From contig JADLCY010000010.1 in the NCBI GenBank assembly GCA_020846935.1, forward strand, positions 62,001-126,000: a stretch of 64,000 nucleotides of DNA, in the 5' to 3' direction. Positions 34,294-40,612 of this stretch are shown one piece after another. The stretch is from Gemmatimonadaceae bacterium. Its GTDB lineage: Bacteria > Gemmatimonadota > Gemmatimonadetes > Gemmatimonadales > Gemmatimonadaceae. Position 1 is the first letter of the stretch, and every line of letters starts with the position of its first letter. Under the pieces are notes generated by a model. The model was not told the DNA's origin. It was given only the letters and a program-made list of their open reading frames with translations, and searched no databases. The position numbers were made by a program, and so were the translations under genes.

Positions 34294-34366
<73 letters not shown>

Positions 34367-34509: not shown

Positions 34510-35459
34510 ATGCCGCAGCCACGCGAGTGGCGGATCGCGCGCGTTGCGCGCGCACTCGCCTGGAGCACTGTCCTCGCCTTCACCGCCGCCTGCACCGGCG
34601 ATGACGGCGCCGTTGGGCCGCCCGGCCCGCCGGGTACCACCGGCGCCCAGGGTCCGGCCGGGCCACCAGGTCCGCAGGGCCCCACCGGCCCGACCGGACC
34701 GACGGGATCGTCTGCGGGCCGGACGATCTACGCCGTCGACGCCACTAACGCGCTCCTCAGCTTCGGCGCGCTTCGCCCCGACCTCGTGCGCCGCACTGCG
34801 ATCACGGGACTGCAAGCCGGTGAGTCGGTGCTCGGCATCGACTTCCGACCCGTTGATGGCAAGCTCTACGCGCTGGGATCCACGAGCCGCGTGTACGCCA
34901 TCGACACCGCGACCGCGGTGGCCACCGCGGTCGGGCCGGCGGCCTTCACTCCGGCGATCGCCGGCACGAACGTCGGCTTCGACTTCAACCCGGTCCCCGA
35001 TCGGATCCGCATTCATACCGATCAGACGCAGGACATTCGGCTGAATCCAGTCACCGGTGCGCTCGCCGCGACGGACGTCCCGCTCGCCTATCGCACTGGC
35101 GATGCCGGCTTCGGCATCACGCCCACGGTGGCGGGGACCGCCTACACGAACAGTGTGGCCGGCGCGACACCACCGTGCTCTTTGCGATCGATGCGGCCCG
35201 TGACGTCCTGGTGACGCTCGCAAACCCCAACGATGGGCAGCTGTCCACGGTTGGCCCGCTCGGTGTCAACACGAACCTGGACATCGGCTTCGACATCGCC
35301 GGTGTCAGCGGCGACGCGTTCGTCACGCTCACCACGGGCGCGGGAGCCGGTGGCACGGGCTCCACGCTCTACGTGATCAACCCGTCGACCGGTGCGCTCT
35401 TCGTGATCGGCAACGTTGGCTCTGCTGCTCCGGTGCGCGGGATCGCCATCGCACCTTGA
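34510..35459 (+). pseudogene. DUF4394-like lipoprotein with collagen-like repeat, frameshifted
   Basis: The frame from ATG 34510 (with GAGGAACC upstream) encodes a lipoprotein signal ending FTAAC, then twelve Gly-X-Y triplets (GAV to GSS), then a DUF4394 beta-propeller-like domain ([30 protein letters not shown]). Near 35168 the frame changes. The continuation, [19 protein letters not shown] to GIAIAP at 35459, is in another phase. Restoring one base in GACACCACC would rejoin them into about 316 residues. It is either a real frameshift or a base-calling error. An intact gene would encode an exported collagen-stalked protein. Confidence 0.75.
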
Positions 35460-35489: not shown

Positions 35490-35936
35490 TCAGGCGCGGG
35501 GCGCAGCCGGCGCGGCGGGGACGCACATCACGAATGCATGATATCGGCGCTCGCCCTGGCGAGGTTCCACCACCGTGGCGGCGCGCGCTTCGGCTTCCGT
35601 GTTCAGGACCGCACCCTCGTAGACGTTGAAGAGGCAATCCACGGCGGCATGTCGGAAGCGCAGGCTCGCCTCGTTTGGGGCATCGATCGGGTCCGGGGTG
35701 CGCGTCCAGCCAGCGGCCCGAAGTCGCTGGTAGAAGTCCTCGGCGGCTCTTCGAATGCCGACCGCGGTTGCCCCGGCGGCCGTCACGCGACAGCCCGGTG
35801 TGCGCTGTCTGGTGCGCCAGTCGTCGATGGTATCGCGCTCGACCACGGCCACCATGCCGGAGCGCTCGACGAAACGCCGGGCCTCGGCGCAGAGCGGCTG
35901 GGGCTGGAGCGCGAAGACAAGCAGGAGCCGGACCAT
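35490..35936 (-). CDS. Hypothetical secreted protein
   Basis: This 148-residue protein has a short hydrophobic N-terminus (RLLLVFALQPQPLCAEA) that could be a signal peptide. The mature part has VERDTIDDWRTRQRTPGCRV, then YQRLRAAGWTRTPDPID and HAAVDCLFNVYEGAV. I do not recognise the family. It converges on the DUF4394-like gene, with 30 nt between the stops. Among the overlapping frames here this one has the most protein-like composition. Confidence 0.5.
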   Translation of the reverse strand: MVRLLLVFALQPQPLCAEARRFVERSGMVAVVERDTIDDWRTRQRTPGCRVTAAGATAVGIRRAAEDFYQRLRAAGWTRTPDPIDAPNEASLRFRHAAVDCLFNVYEGAVLNTEAEARAATVVEPRQGERRYHAFVMCVPAAPAAPRA

Positions 35937-36132
35937 GGATCGAATGTCGCGCGGTCACGCCGCCTTCACGCCGTCGTACCCCTCAAGCGAGCAGCGGACG
36001 TAACGCCCTCACGTCCGCGATTCGCACGAGCCGTGGGCGCGACTCAAGGAAAGCGCGGAAAGGGTGACCTTGGCATCGGGCGGGCGTGCAGCGCCTTGGC
36101 GGCCGGCGACTGCCCTTGACGTGCCCCAGAAG

Positions 36133-36163
36133 GGCCGCGCGACCCCGCGGCGGGCGCGCGGCC
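36133..36163 (-). terminator. Hairpin after the small-peptide gene
   Basis: GGCCGCGCG and CGCGCGGCC form a 9 bp stem around a 13 nt loop, 18 nt beyond the stop of the small secreted peptide gene in its direction of transcription. There is no strong T tract, so it is called a probable terminator of the three-gene cassette. Confidence 0.45.
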
Positions 36164-36180
36164 GCTCTGGCTCGCGGCCC

Positions 36181-36402
36181 CTAGAAGTTGCCGTACCCAA
36201 TGTGTGCGGCACCGCATGAGTCGTAGCCCAGCCCCGCATGCGCAGTCCCCTGATGGGTTGCTGGCCACTGAATTCCTTCCCAGTCGTCATGTCGCCAGCT
36301 CCCGGTCGGTATCTGCCAATCTTCGCAACAGAAGCAGCCATCCACACCGGTTGCGGCCACGTTGCCAATCAGTAAAAGAGCCGCGAGCAGAATCCTCCGC
36401 AT
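36181..36402 (-). CDS. Small secreted Cys/Trp/His-rich peptide
   Basis: This is a 73-residue precursor. Residues 1-19 form a signal peptide (RRILLAALLLIGNVAATG). The roughly 54-residue mature part has Cys 23, 25, 26 and 63, four Trp at 29, 36, 41 and 46 at spacings of 7, 5 and 5, four His, and a Gly/Tyr-rich tail ending IGYGNF. A near-perfect ribosome site, GGAGGTGG, sits 4 nt before the ATG and overlaps the stop of the propeller gene, so strong translation is expected. It is the last gene of a cassette with a di-heme enzyme and a beta-propeller. I recognise no named family. A modified or exported peptide is an inference. Confidence 0.7.
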   Translation of the reverse strand: MRRILLAALLLIGNVAATGVDGCFCCEDWQIPTGSWRHDDWEGIQWPATHQGTAHAGLGYDSCGAAHIGYGNF

Positions 36403-36413
36403 GATCCACCTCC

Positions 36414-37514
36414 CTAGCGTTTGAATGTCGCACGATACACTTCCACGCCCGACGTCTCGGCGCTGTCCGCGGGCAACGCGAACAGATACCCTCCAGATAG
36501 TGGTGAACCCACAAAGCCCTCAAACCTCTTGCTAGCCAACACGCGGTGATTCGCGAGGTCGATCACTTGGATGAGCGTGGCTACTCGCGGTCGACGCTCC
36601 AGGGCAGCGAATTCCGCAGGCGTTGCCTCCCGTCGCGATTGACGCACGGGTCTCCATGAGGCGCTCGGCACCGTCGAGACGGTCCATAAGTGATTCTCCG
36701 GCCCTTCCCACAGGCCCCACAGTCGCGGCGCTACTGGCTGGTCGAAGACTCCATCAGAGGGAAGGTCATCCGGGTTCTCCGCAGGTATCCACTCCGCGGT
36801 CTCGAGAAGGGATCTACGCTTCGCCAGCGCCGCATCGTAGACATCGATGCGGAAGATGTAGGGATGCGCGATGAGCACCTCGCCATTCGGCCGCACTGCC
36901 AGCAGCCGGTGCTGGAGCCACGACTTGCGCCACTGCGGGCCCGCGTCATCGAATCGTTTTATGGACGCTCCGTGCTTGTCGATCTGTTGCACTACAAGCG
37001 AAGCACCGCCTCCCGGCAACGACCTCTCGTTTAGCAACAGGTTACCGTTCGGAAGGCGAATGGCGGCCATGCCCTGACCACCCCGAACCCGGATTGGCGT
37101 GCTTCCAAGGAAATTCCCATCCTTCGAGAAGCGGGAGCTTCTCCCCAGCGCAGCATCGATGATCTGCACTTCACCACCCGGACCAGGGACGATGTTGCGC
37201 ACAACTTCGTACTCTCCTGGCCCCCCGCCTTTCCTCCCCAGCTGCCGAAGAAACATTCCGGAGGAGTCGAACAGTCGAACTACACGCTCGCGAGGGTCAA
37301 GGACGTAGAATCGACCGAACACGTCGCGTGCCAGCCACGTGCTGGGTGCGGACGACAGGTCCGTGTCCGTTCGAAGCGTTACCACCCTCTCGAGTACGAT
37401 CGTGCATGATCCACACGAAGGCTCGGCCGACATTCGTATCACAGGCTGTGCCGAGAGCGTAATGCCTCCAATCGAAGAAGCGACGACGGCATATCTGAAG
37501 CTAAGAGGAGTCAT
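36414..37514 (-). CDS. 6-bladed beta-propeller (NHL-like) protein
   Basis: This 366-residue protein has a weak N-terminal export signal ending near TLSAQ, then repeated propeller blades. The visible blade motifs are DVFGRFYVLDPRERVVRLFD, GEVQIIDAAL with RSSRFSKDG, IRLPNGNLLL, LAVRPNGEVLIAHPYIFRID and LWTVSTVPSASW. The type is common beside small secreted peptides in other phyla. Its ATG overlaps the di-heme enzyme stop as ATGA. Codon use is less GC-rich than in the neighbouring blocks. The ligand is unknown. Confidence 0.78.
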   Translation of the reverse strand: MTPLSFRYAVVASSIGGITLSAQPVIRMSAEPSCGSCTIVLERVVTLRTDTDLSSAPSTWLARDVFGRFYVLDPRERVVRLFDSSGMFLRQLGRKGGGPGEYEVVRNIVPGPGGEVQIIDAALGRSSRFSKDGNFLGSTPIRVRGGQGMAAIRLPNGNLLLNERSLPGGGASLVVQQIDKHGASIKRFDDAGPQWRKSWLQHRLLAVRPNGEVLIAHPYIFRIDVYDAALAKRRSLLETAEWIPAENPDDLPSDGVFDQPVAPRLWGLWEGPENHLWTVSTVPSASWRPVRQSRREATPAEFAALERRPRVATLIQVIDLANHRVLASKRFEGFVGSPLSGGYLFALPADSAETSGVEVYRATFKR

Positions 37515-38584
37515 CTGAATCGTCGCGGAAAGAAGTGGAGACCTAGCGCGTGCGGATGCGCGATATGCGTTCCGATTGCTGAATCACGAGCTGGGGTAGG
37601 CCAAAGGCTCTGCCAATCGTTCGTCAGGGTCATGAGGAAGGCTTCAAGATCCTCCATCTCGCTAACTGACAGGTCGATGGGGCGAACGACCGGATCGAGG
37701 TTGGGATTGGCCACCCCGCCGTTTGAGTAGAACTTGATCACGGCGGCAAGAGTCGGGAGGCTCCCATCGTGCATGTAGGGTGCAGTCACTCCAATGTTCC
37801 AGAGCGAAGGTGTCCGGAATGCTCCCCAGTCTCGCCTGTTCCCGGTGACCTCGTAGCGCCCCGCATCAAGCATGATGGAGTCAGCGTAACCCACTCCGAT
37901 GTTGTGAAACCTGCCATCGTGAAACGCAATGATTCCAGATCCCATTGGATCGGGAAGTGGCAAGTGGCAACCCGAGCAGCCAGTCCGATTGCTTCGAAAG
38001 AGTCGCCAACCGCGATGCTCGGAATCGGAGAGCAGTGGTTCTGCCCCGAGGTAGAAGCGTTCGAAGCGCGAGCCCGTCGTCACCAAGGTGCTTTCGAATG
38101 TTGTGAGCGCGTCAAGGAGGTCTTTCGCCTGAGGCATTCTCCCATAGGCGGCGCGAAAATGGCGTCTGTAGTCTGTGCGTGCTCGCAAACGCGCAGCAGC
38201 TTCTGGCGCAGTGATCCCCATGTCCCCTGCCTCGGAGAACACGAACGACAGCTGGTGCGCGAGGGACGTCGCGCGGCCATCCCAGTCGAACGTCGTGCGA
38301 AACACCGTAGCGTTCACAAGGGATGGCGCATTTCGCCGGCGTGCATCGACCCCTATTCCAGCACTAACTGCGCGCGGCTCAGCGAATGCATGGCGCGGGT
38401 CATGGCATGTCGCGCAGCTCAGGGTCGAATCTCGAGAAAGCAGAGGTTCGGCGAACAGCGCTCGACCCAAGGCAACGCGCGCCGCGTGAAATCCTTCGTG
38501 TGCCTTGCGCGGAACGGGACCTTGGACCGCCGGCCCGAAGAAGGCCGGCGTCGCGAGCAACAGTGCGACAGCGATAGCAGGCAT
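37511..38584 (-). CDS. Di-heme cytochrome c peroxidase / MauG-like enzyme
   Basis: This 357-residue periplasmic enzyme starts at ATG 38584 with GAGGGTG upstream. A signal peptide (MPAIAVALLLATPAFFG) precedes two c-type heme sites: CATCH at residues 57-61 and CSGCH at 203-207. Family blocks include NAPSLVNATV with FDWDGRATSL, and FRTPSLWNIGVTAPYMHDGS followed by LPTLAAVIKFYSNGG. The superfamily includes hydrogen-peroxide-reducing CcpA and MauG/MbnH, which oxidise tryptophan in partner proteins. It heads the cassette and has its own promoter. Confidence 0.9.
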   Translation of the reverse strand: MPAIAVALLLATPAFFGPAVQGPVPRKAHEGFHAARVALGRALFAEPLLSRDSTLSCATCHDPRHAFAEPRAVSAGIGVDARRRNAPSLVNATVFRTTFDWDGRATSLAHQLSFVFSEAGDMGITAPEAAARLRARTDYRRHFRAAYGRMPQAKDLLDALTTFESTLVTTGSRFERFYLGAEPLLSDSEHRGWRLFRSNRTGCSGCHLPLPDPMGSGIIAFHDGRFHNIGVGYADSIMLDAGRYEVTGNRRDWGAFRTPSLWNIGVTAPYMHDGSLPTLAAVIKFYSNGGVANPNLDPVVRPIDLSVSEMEDLEAFLMTLTNDWQSLWPTPARDSAIGTHIAHPHALGLHFFPRRFR

Positions 38585-38615
38585 GTTCACCCTCACGCCA
38601 TGACGCGGCCGACTC

Positions 38616-38644
38616 ACTATTGGCCCGTCTCTCGCGATTGTCAA
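38616..38644 (-). promoter_or_regulatory. Sigma-70-type promoter of the di-heme/propeller/peptide cassette
   Basis: On the minus strand a perfect -35 TTGACA (38644-38639) is followed after 17 bp by AATAGT (38621-38616), a 4/6 match to TATAAT. Transcription would begin about 25 nt before the ATG at 38584. It is one of the few textbook promoters visible here, suggesting housekeeping-type expression. Confidence 0.65.
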
Positions 38645-38932
38645 GCAGGGCCATCCTTTTCCGCCTTCCCACGGTTTCTTGCGGGCGGCGCCAGGCGCGA
38701 GGTCGTGCCACAGTGGCTACAGCGACCTGGGCATCACGGGAGTCGAACGCCGCCTCGGGCGCGGGCGAGGGTTGCGATGACTCCGAGGTCGTGAGAGCTG
38801 CGGCGAACTGCAGCGGTCCTGTTGTTTGGGCAGGCGATGTGTTGAAGAGGCTGGCTCCCGGTGCGACACTGTTCGCTGCACGCCGACAAGGTGCCGATAA
38901 TGAACGTGTCCCGGCGCACAATGCCTCGGCCC
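38645..38932. other. Intergenic region between the cassette promoter and the beta-helix gene
   Basis: About 290 bases lie upstream of the cassette promoter and downstream of the beta-helix gene stop. Several frames are open but none has protein-like composition or a ribosome site. No hairpin with a T tract and no repeat is seen. Confidence 0.4.
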
Positions 38933-40612
38933 TCAGCGTGCGATCACGACCGCGGACACGCCGGCATCGATCCGCGCGCGCGCGATGCCAGCCGAACCTA
39001 ACGCGTCGGCCAGGGTGGCGTGCCACGTGGTGCCAGGAGGATAGGTGACCGTCGCCCGCCCGACGAAAGCGTTCCCCGTCCACTGTGACGCGCCGAGTGC
39101 GCCGGCCTGCCACGCGACCAATCCCTCGCCCACGCCACTCGCGCCCACACCATATTGCCCGCGCGGGAACACGTTCCGGTCGAACACGAGATTCCCGACG
39201 GCCTTGAGGCGGCCGCCGGAGATGTCGAACAGCACGGCCTCCCGGATCCTCGCCCCTTCCTCGAAGGTGTTCCCCCGAACGACGACGTCATCGTTCTCCG
39301 AGAGAAAGATCATCGGCCGCGCATCCCCTTCGAAGGGCGCGACGTTGAGCGGGCCGATCCAGTTCTCGAGGATGGCAAACCGGCGGTTGCTGGAATCGGT
39401 CACCGTGACGCCATTCTGGTCGGCCCGACCGGCGATCGAAAAGCCCGCGCCGGTCTGGCGTACGAGGTTGCGCCGGATCGTCCAGTCCGACGTGCCGCAC
39501 GCCGGACATCCGAGGTTCTGCGATGTGGACTTCAGCACGAACGCATAACCCGTCTGGCCGTCCGTCCACGATCCCTCGATCACGTTCTGCTCCACGAGCA
39601 CACGCGCCGAGGACTTCGTCTCGATCAGGTTCTTCACGTTCCAGTTGGCGCCCTTCCACGCGAGCGGCTTCGCGATGTGGTTACGTCTGATGGTCACGTC
39701 GCTCGGTACGAGCCCTGGCACCCTGGGGTCGGCACCACCAAACATCACGTTCTCGCTCGCCGCTTCGAGCGTGTTGTTCTCGATGAGGATGGGTCCGGAC
39801 GCATTCCAGCTGATCCAGCACTGGCTGTCGAATCCGGATGCGTGAATCTCCTCACACCAGGAATCGCGGAGCGTCTGCGCGCCGCCATTGCCGGCCACGG
39901 CTCGTCGCACGTGTTGACGCGGCCATCCGTGCAGGTACACCTGCTGGAGCACGATGTCGGTCGGCAGGTCCGAGGCGAGTCGCTCCTGTGCGGTGCCGAT
40001 CTGGACGAGCGCGACCGGACCCTCGACCATGGTCGAGTCGGTCGTGACCTCGACGCCGAGGAGCATGGTGCGCGTCGCGCGTGCGGCGAATGTGAGCGGC
40101 GTGGTGCGGTTGGCGCTGACGATGCGGGCGAGTCCAGGCGCGGTGGAGGGCCGCATGCGGCCCGGGGGGATCGTGCTCGCCGAGCGGATGACGACCCAAC
40201 CCGGGTCGACGCGTGGCGGAACGGTGAACGTCCCCTGGTACGTGCCCGCCAGGCAGAGCACATCTCCGCCGCGTGCGGCGTTGAGTGCGCCCTGCAACTC
40301 TCCGGTACCTACACGGACCGTGCAGGCGCGATCATCCAGGTCGTCGGGCACGAGCGGCATCGACCGCGGCAGGTGGACGCCGCTGGCGCTCGGCATCGTG
40401 TCGGTCGGGGCGGTCGTCGTGTCGGTCTTCGCCGTGTCCGGCACGTTGATCGGCACGATCGGGAGACCGACGAGGCGTGTGAGCACGACGCCGCCAGGCG
40501 CGATCGGATCCACCGCACAGCCCGCGAGGGCCGTGAGCGTGAGCAGGATCGCGAGTGGTGCCCGGGCGACTGGCAGGAAGGGCGGGGCGCGGGTAGGCGA
40601 AGTTGGCGTCAC
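38933..40612 (-). CDS. Right-handed beta-helix lipoprotein
   Basis: This 559-residue exported lipoprotein starts at GTG 40612, with AAAGGG upstream. A basic N-terminus leads into PLAILLTLTALAGC. A Thr/Pro-rich linker follows, then the start of a parallel beta-helix, GELQGALNAARGGDVLCLAG. Repeated helix turns such as GPILIENNTLEAASENVMFGG, DVTIRRNHIAKP and VLVEQNVIEG come next, then DWTIRRNLVRQ and DVVVRGNTFEEG. These resemble pectate-lyase/right-handed parallel beta-helix repeats (PbH1), often found in polysaccharide-active or adhesive proteins. Catalytic residues are not evident. It is divergent from the Ig-like lipoprotein gene. Confidence 0.8.
   Translation of the reverse strand: MTPTSPTRAPPFLPVARAPLAILLTLTALAGCAVDPIAPGGVVLTRLVGLPIVPINVPDTAKTDTTTAPTDTMPSASGVHLPRSMPLVPDDLDDRACTVRVGTGELQGALNAARGGDVLCLAGTYQGTFTVPPRVDPGWVVIRSASTIPPGRMRPSTAPGLARIVSANRTTPLTFAARATRTMLLGVEVTTDSTMVEGPVALVQIGTAQERLASDLPTDIVLQQVYLHGWPRQHVRRAVAGNGGAQTLRDSWCEEIHASGFDSQCWISWNASGPILIENNTLEAASENVMFGGADPRVPGLVPSDVTIRRNHIAKPLAWKGANWNVKNLIETKSSARVLVEQNVIEGSWTDGQTGYAFVLKSTSQNLGCPACGTSDWTIRRNLVRQTGAGFSIAGRADQNGVTVTDSSNRRFAILENWIGPLNVAPFEGDARPMIFLSENDDVVVRGNTFEEGARIREAVLFDISGGRLKAVGNLVFDRNVFPRGQYGVGASGVGEGLVAWQAGALGASQWTGNAFVGRATVTYPPGTTWHATLADALGSAGIARARIDAGVSAVVIAR

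Follow-up and report, generated by a model that had tools for sequence, protein, structure and literature searches.

Secreted six-bladed NHL/DUF5128 beta-propellers and small secreted Cys/His-rich proteins form a recurrent two-gene module that is widespread in Gemmatimonadota, a pattern that we establish for the protein family and infer for one peptide encoded in the 64,000-nucleotide stretch of Gemmatimonadaceae DNA analysed here (the window). At positions 36181-38644 of the window this pair is joined by a gene for a MauG-type di-heme enzyme, and the best explanation of the locus as a whole, which we hold only tentatively, is a trio that is mobile as a block and in which the enzyme oxidises tryptophans of the propeller-bound peptide. 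Of the two results, the propeller-Cys/His pair has the stronger support and the wider reach.

The DNA behind other DUF5128-type propellers encodes secreted proteins of ~150-180 aa that combine a Cys/His-rich domain, with a conserved Cys/His set (CxxC..H..H..C..CxxxHxxC), and a C-terminal part resembling NxxRxALQVxGCxGxVxAxxPL. A profile of this family, which is defined here (alignment A3) and was built from six proteins, marked 40 places in 19 of the 220 genomes over which it was run. At all 30 loci found through the peptide (L222-L251), which are mostly independent of the six seeds (24 are), a propeller frame lies on the same strand within ~1.5 kb and usually directly adjacent, whereas none of the 74 controls has a propeller (0/31 chance peptide matches, 0/28 and 0/15 MauG homologues). 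Although some of these genomes contain very many propellers, even a base rate of one in four would be too low to yield 24 independent matches running. Gene order within the pair is variable, the peptide gene standing before or after that of the propeller; short overlaps are common, and a third gene is never recurrent. The converse fails, as most propellers have no such Cys/His neighbour. Both the window genome (L107, L239) and bacterium HR33, discussed below, contain another propeller beside a clear family peptide. Neither Pfam nor NCBIfam gave a meaningful match to the family, and a literature search returned nothing on such peptides in Gemmatimonadota. The family offers a lead on the very large and uncharacterised DUF5128/NHL family, of which some genomes hold more than 200 candidate propeller stretches. 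A very large expansion is seen in three genomes of one genus (G208, G263 and G341, genus g74), with 246-267 first-look candidates per genome of ~4.5 Mb.

The architecture of the window locus is largely as originally predicted: the enzyme, propeller and peptide genes are co-directional on the minus strand (Table 1), the propeller start codon lies inside the enzyme stop in a 4-nt overlap (ATGA), and the peptide ATG follows 11 nt past the propeller stop behind a strong ribosome site at 4-nt spacing, GGGAGGTG-GATC (the stretch before the ATG reads GGGAGGTGGATC). The single sigma-70 promoter that had been placed in front of the genes finds no support beyond chance, the promoter-like site being no commoner than in shuffled sequence (1 found vs 0.5 +/- 0.6). 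The TTG from which the enzyme ORF was listed, at 38644, falls within this site, and the ATG at 38584, with GAGGG in front of it and a signal peptide after it, appears the likelier start. No terminator was found behind the peptide gene, where a G+C-rich hairpin lacks a T run (z = -1.3).

That the three genes form one unit, as had also been claimed, is supported by their order and spacing in HR33, by their composition and by an empty site in a congener. Their GC3 values (0.64, 0.67 and 0.65 for enzyme, propeller and peptide) fall below the 0.82 +/- 0.06 of the other window genes, a comparison set chosen crudely. In a genome of the same genus (G447), contig 514 aligns with window 35495-35895 to the left of the block and with 38967-40324 to its right, and only ~178 nt separate the two flanks; the whole block is therefore missing there, and the three genes were gained or lost as a single block. 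Judging the direction from composition, the cassette was probably acquired horizontally. Nearby, on the plus strand, a collagen-like GPP-repeat protein (34510-35459) adjoins a tRNA-Lys gene (34294-34366) and appears to be split, perhaps by a frameshift, between the overlapping frames 34510-35214 and 35175-35459; the congener lacks it here as well, so that the stretch beside the tRNA-Lys may be a variable site.

Table 1. Positions of the cassette genes and associated features (window coordinates, except for the HR33 locus)
Feature	Position	Strand	Remarks
Secreted MauG-like di-heme c-type enzyme	37511..38644	-	likely start ATG 38584; CCP_MauG PF03150 1.1e-42
Secreted six-bladed NHL/DUF5128 beta-propeller	36414..37514	-	PF17170 4e-6; AlphaFold; Foldseek
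Secreted Cys/His/Trp peptide, 73 aa	36181..36402	-	ribosome site; same position and type in HR33
Promoter-like site TTGACA-17-AATAGT	38616..38644	-	10/12 matches, chance level
Cassette-bearing block absent from G447	35896..38966		~178 nt in its place
First heme motif CATCH, residues 77-81	38402..38416	-	conserved in HR33
Second heme motif CSGCH, residues 223-227	37964..37978	-	conserved in HR33
Tyr306 codon, predicted axial ligand of six-coordinate heme	37727..37729	-	alignment; conserved in HR33
CxxC (CGSC, residues 34-37) right after propeller signal sequence	37404..37415	-	conserved in HR33
HR33 peptide frame with in-frame TGA	L093:4503-4222	-	

The predicted secreted six-bladed propeller was confirmed by a DUF5128 match above the gathering score (26.7 vs 22.9 bits) and by an AlphaFold model that folds as a beta-propeller (pLDDT 78) and whose best PDB matches in Foldseek are NHL propellers. 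The CxxC after its signal sequence is common in its subfamily; as a mark of peptide pairing it was striking in the first loci and was set aside when all loci gave only p = 0.04.

The 73-residue peptide was correctly predicted to hold four Trp, four Cys and four His. Its codon composition equals that of the two neighbour genes, and it resembles the propeller-paired family in being secreted, in lying on the same strand 11 nt behind a DUF5128/NHL propeller, in domain length and in a CxCC..H..H..H..CxxxH pattern. It ends after the Cys/His region and lacks the C-terminal part of the family, and it scores 4.3 bits against the profile of the Cys/His domain, a value reached by 210 of 4000 shuffles. 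We consider it, from these sequence features, a probable short, Trp-rich and divergent member of the family. A contig scan and a search of 201 genomes for its homologues gave chance matches only, none of them by a propeller; TGA-containing matches, considered as a possible selenoprotein family, proved on inspection to be unrelated stretches. Tryptophan makes up 8.8% of the Cys/His domain in the two MauG-linked peptides vs 2.4% in family members without MauG (p = 0.003, a post hoc comparison with n = 2). The suggestion that the propeller may export the peptide is without support because the peptide carries its own signal sequence.

The enzyme is a clear member of the CCP_MauG family (146.6 bits, cut-off 25.6), with the predicted CATCH and CSGCH motifs beginning at residues 77 and 223, and its best PDB match is the di-heme enzyme 6e1c (1e-38). 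Tyr306 aligns with the Met of the classical peroxidase 9qdt and with the Tyr of 6e1c; a Tyr axial ligand is found in MauG, MbnH and BthA and a Met in classical peroxidases, and the bis-Fe(IV) signal of MauG and BthA requires that Tyr (PMC6405878). The Trp of a WDGR motif, which by alignment would be the Trp between the hemes, is also conserved in HR33. This His/Tyr signature supports assignment to the MauG/MbnH type, in agreement with the MauG-like enzyme originally proposed, rather than to the classical His/Met peroxidases, which carry Met at the high-potential heme where this enzyme has Tyr306. The enzyme stays below the cut-offs both of MauG (TIGR03791, 174.3 bits vs an equivalog cut-off of 443.85) and of MbnH (TIGR04039, 4e-61, 206.8 vs 362.85 bits); neither mauB nor mauA stands next to it, none of its neighbours matches a methylamine dehydrogenase subunit, and the genes examined include no MbnP-like neighbour. 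An AlphaFold model of the enzyme made from two sequences (pLDDT 30) was left out of the evidence. Among 39 Gemmatimonadota homologues placed in a tree, the enzyme groups firmly with that of HR33 only (100/100).

Bacterium HR33, which belongs to another family, is the only other genome among 201 of the order with both a close propeller (40-41% identity) and a close di-heme enzyme (54-56%). The two genes stand in the same order as in the window, ~0.3-0.5 kb apart, and are likewise followed by a small secreted peptide with the CF-C-D-W pattern behind a strong ribosome site, here TAGGAGG. A third trio was found neither in a phylum sample of ~395 genomes nor in 102 and 179 genomes of the two families concerned. 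In this sole other full trio the peptide frame, which the original prediction had expected to be kept in relatives, is interrupted: 42 codons (MSISKTFLVGAAAAGLLLVWRGKDSTVGAETVCFACTDGWDP) end in a TGA, beyond which the same frame stays open (SGWVTHIDFFWFDNNVLHGVKHPRETRGGCDHWEHFWYG...). Behind another propeller of HR33 stands a peptide (QQVCGFCIDEWDPNVGDVHIFD) that matches the interrupted one across the TGA, a match equalled by only 3 of 5000 shuffles. Both HR33 and the window genome encode a tRNA-Sec with anticodon TCA (L201, L202), so that the TGA of HR33 may be read; the stem found in a search for a bacterial SECIS behind it is weak (z = -1.1 over 41 nt, positive over longer stretches), and the codon may alike be selenocysteine, a recent stop or an assembly error. 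Beyond what composition would give, the window and HR33 peptides are only weakly alike (120/5000 shuffles as good), and their likeness downstream of the TGA alone, also tried, has no significance (2316/5000). Between the HR33 enzyme and propeller genes, at L093:5655-5897 on the minus strand, a remnant (ISSEVTCPGQSEV) looks like the N-terminal end of a further propeller copy, which suggests decay or recombination at that locus.

We regard oxidation of the peptide's tryptophans by the enzyme as plausible, although our confidence in it falls somewhat short of even. The core would be a secreted NHL/DUF5128 propeller with its dedicated small Cys/His-rich partner, in front of which a MauG-type enzyme was added. 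The three proteins would meet in the periplasm, where the peptide may be seated on the propeller and held by its Cys/His cluster or by a metal; with the bis-Fe(IV) chemistry expected of a His/Tyr di-heme enzyme from its family, the H2O2-charged enzyme could then pull electrons over a long range from Trp of the propeller-bound peptide, and the product might be an oxidised or cross-linked Trp that acts as redox centre or metal ligand. The model for this scheme is the action of MauG on pre-methylamine dehydrogenase, and the oxidation of methylamine dehydrogenase tryptophans by MauG is an established precedent. MauG-like genes also stand beside their oxidised targets in mtoX operons (PMC5739008) and in CorA/CorB (PMC3912023). 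The mechanism is favoured by the order and coupling of the trio in HR33, the empty site in the congener, the shared GC3, the pairing at 30/30 loci vs 0/74 controls, the Tyr ligand and the Trp excess. Against it stand the interrupted HR33 frame, the weak profile match of the window peptide, the post hoc nature of a Trp excess seen in two sequences, and the distribution of the trio: of the recurrent co-occurrence of three families that the original prediction had looked for, the pair of propeller and small secreted Cys-rich protein bears out its part, and the routine presence of the enzyme does not, as the trio occurs in two genomes only, none of 43 MauG-homologue loci has a propeller and none of 29 propeller-peptide loci has a MauG. 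A bolder reading, which we find unlikely, is that propeller and peptide, each as one subunit, make up a secreted enzyme or metal carrier of a new class, with a Trp-derived cofactor installed by the MauG-type enzyme as its active centre; an architecture like that of methylamine dehydrogenase would then have arisen independently, with an NHL propeller and an unrelated peptide as its parts. To our knowledge, very few proteins have been described as natural substrates of MauG-type enzymes. The superfamily has thousands of members, 6600 sequences having been placed in one network (PMC6405878), and an enzyme, propeller and peptide that move as a block represent a small, testable candidate for such a substrate.

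The main alternative, to which we give a rather low probability, is that the enzyme acts on the propeller and matures a Trp-derived cofactor there, as proposed for methanethiol oxidase, while the peptide is the usual propeller partner. In line with it, mtoX operons pair MauG with an SBP56 protein that has been argued to contain a TTQ-type cofactor (PMC5739008), and in a neighbouring clade of the enzyme a gene for a secreted Trp-rich PD40 propeller lies immediately upstream at all nine loci with room, no Cys-peptide being seen there. However, the PD40 and NHL propellers belong to separate families, the Trp excess sits in the peptides, and the MauG tree does not place the window clade within the PD40-linked one, so that it does not demonstrate a shared propeller-linked origin. 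The PD40 link, which is lacking in more distant homologues, possibly represents a second enzyme-propeller partnership. Members of the linked clade (L101, L102, L103, L209, L210, L212, L214, L215) often have TPR-PD40 proteins as neighbours, several of the loci lying behind a response regulator gene.

We also think it improbable that the enzyme is an ordinary periplasmic H2O2 reductase or thiol oxidase which shares an operon with a metal- or thiol-dependent surface module of propeller and peptide. The CCP_MauG fold does include classical peroxidases, and the Cys/His set of the family is typical of metal or disulfide sites, but the genes travel as a block, and Tyr takes the place of Met at the high-potential heme, a feature linked to bis-Fe(IV) in BthA and MauG, though BthA reduces H2O2 as well (PMC6405878). 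Less credible still is the view that the window peptide is a chance or decaying frame and that only enzyme and propeller matter: a significant relative was found in no genome, TGA stops the HR33 frame and a close propeller in another genome (G400) has no peptide behind it, but the strong ribosome sites of the two genomes, the signal peptides, the shared CF-C-D-W start, neighbour-like codon usage, clear family peptides beside other propellers of both genomes and the tRNA-Sec of HR33 speak against it.

The preferred reading, in which the enzyme would oxidise a propeller-bound peptide, has partial counterparts in several known systems. Like MauG with methylamine dehydrogenase (the MauB propeller and the small Cys/Trp subunit MauA), the cassette combines genes for a secreted His/Tyr di-heme enzyme, a beta-propeller and a small protein rich in Cys and Trp; unlike it, the propeller is NHL/DUF5128 and not of the MauB family, the 73-aa peptide has no MauA match, the enzyme lies far below the MauG cut-off (174 vs 444 bits), and the cassette is found in two genomes only. 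By sequence the closest enzymes are those of MbnH/MbnP and CorB/CorA (TIGR04039, 6e1c), which convert Trp to kynurenine and whose genes likewise accompany that of a small protein, secreted or at the surface, CorA having a kynurenine-linked copper site (PMC3912023). The cassette differs from these in an enzyme below the MbnH cut-off (207 vs 363 bits), in lacking an MbnP/CorA-like gene and in the propeller gene between enzyme and peptide. The mtoX-SCO1-mauG operon of methanethiol oxidase (SBP56) similarly joins a MauG-like gene to that of a secreted protein in which a Trp-derived cofactor has been proposed (PMC5739008). The cassette has no SCO1/SenC gene, its propeller is NHL/DUF5128 rather than SBP56, and a small peptide gene is present. 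Finally, six-bladed DUF5128 propellers of Bacteroidota occur with small exported Cys-bearing proteins of the NVEALA type, a pairing that the original prediction had mentioned and that is at best an analogy, as the Pfam NVEALA profile does not match the window peptide up to E = 1 and the Gemmatimonadota motif is its own. What the two phyla share is a propeller gene beside one for a small secreted Cys-bearing protein, an arrangement that we saw once in Bacteroides fragilis (L125).
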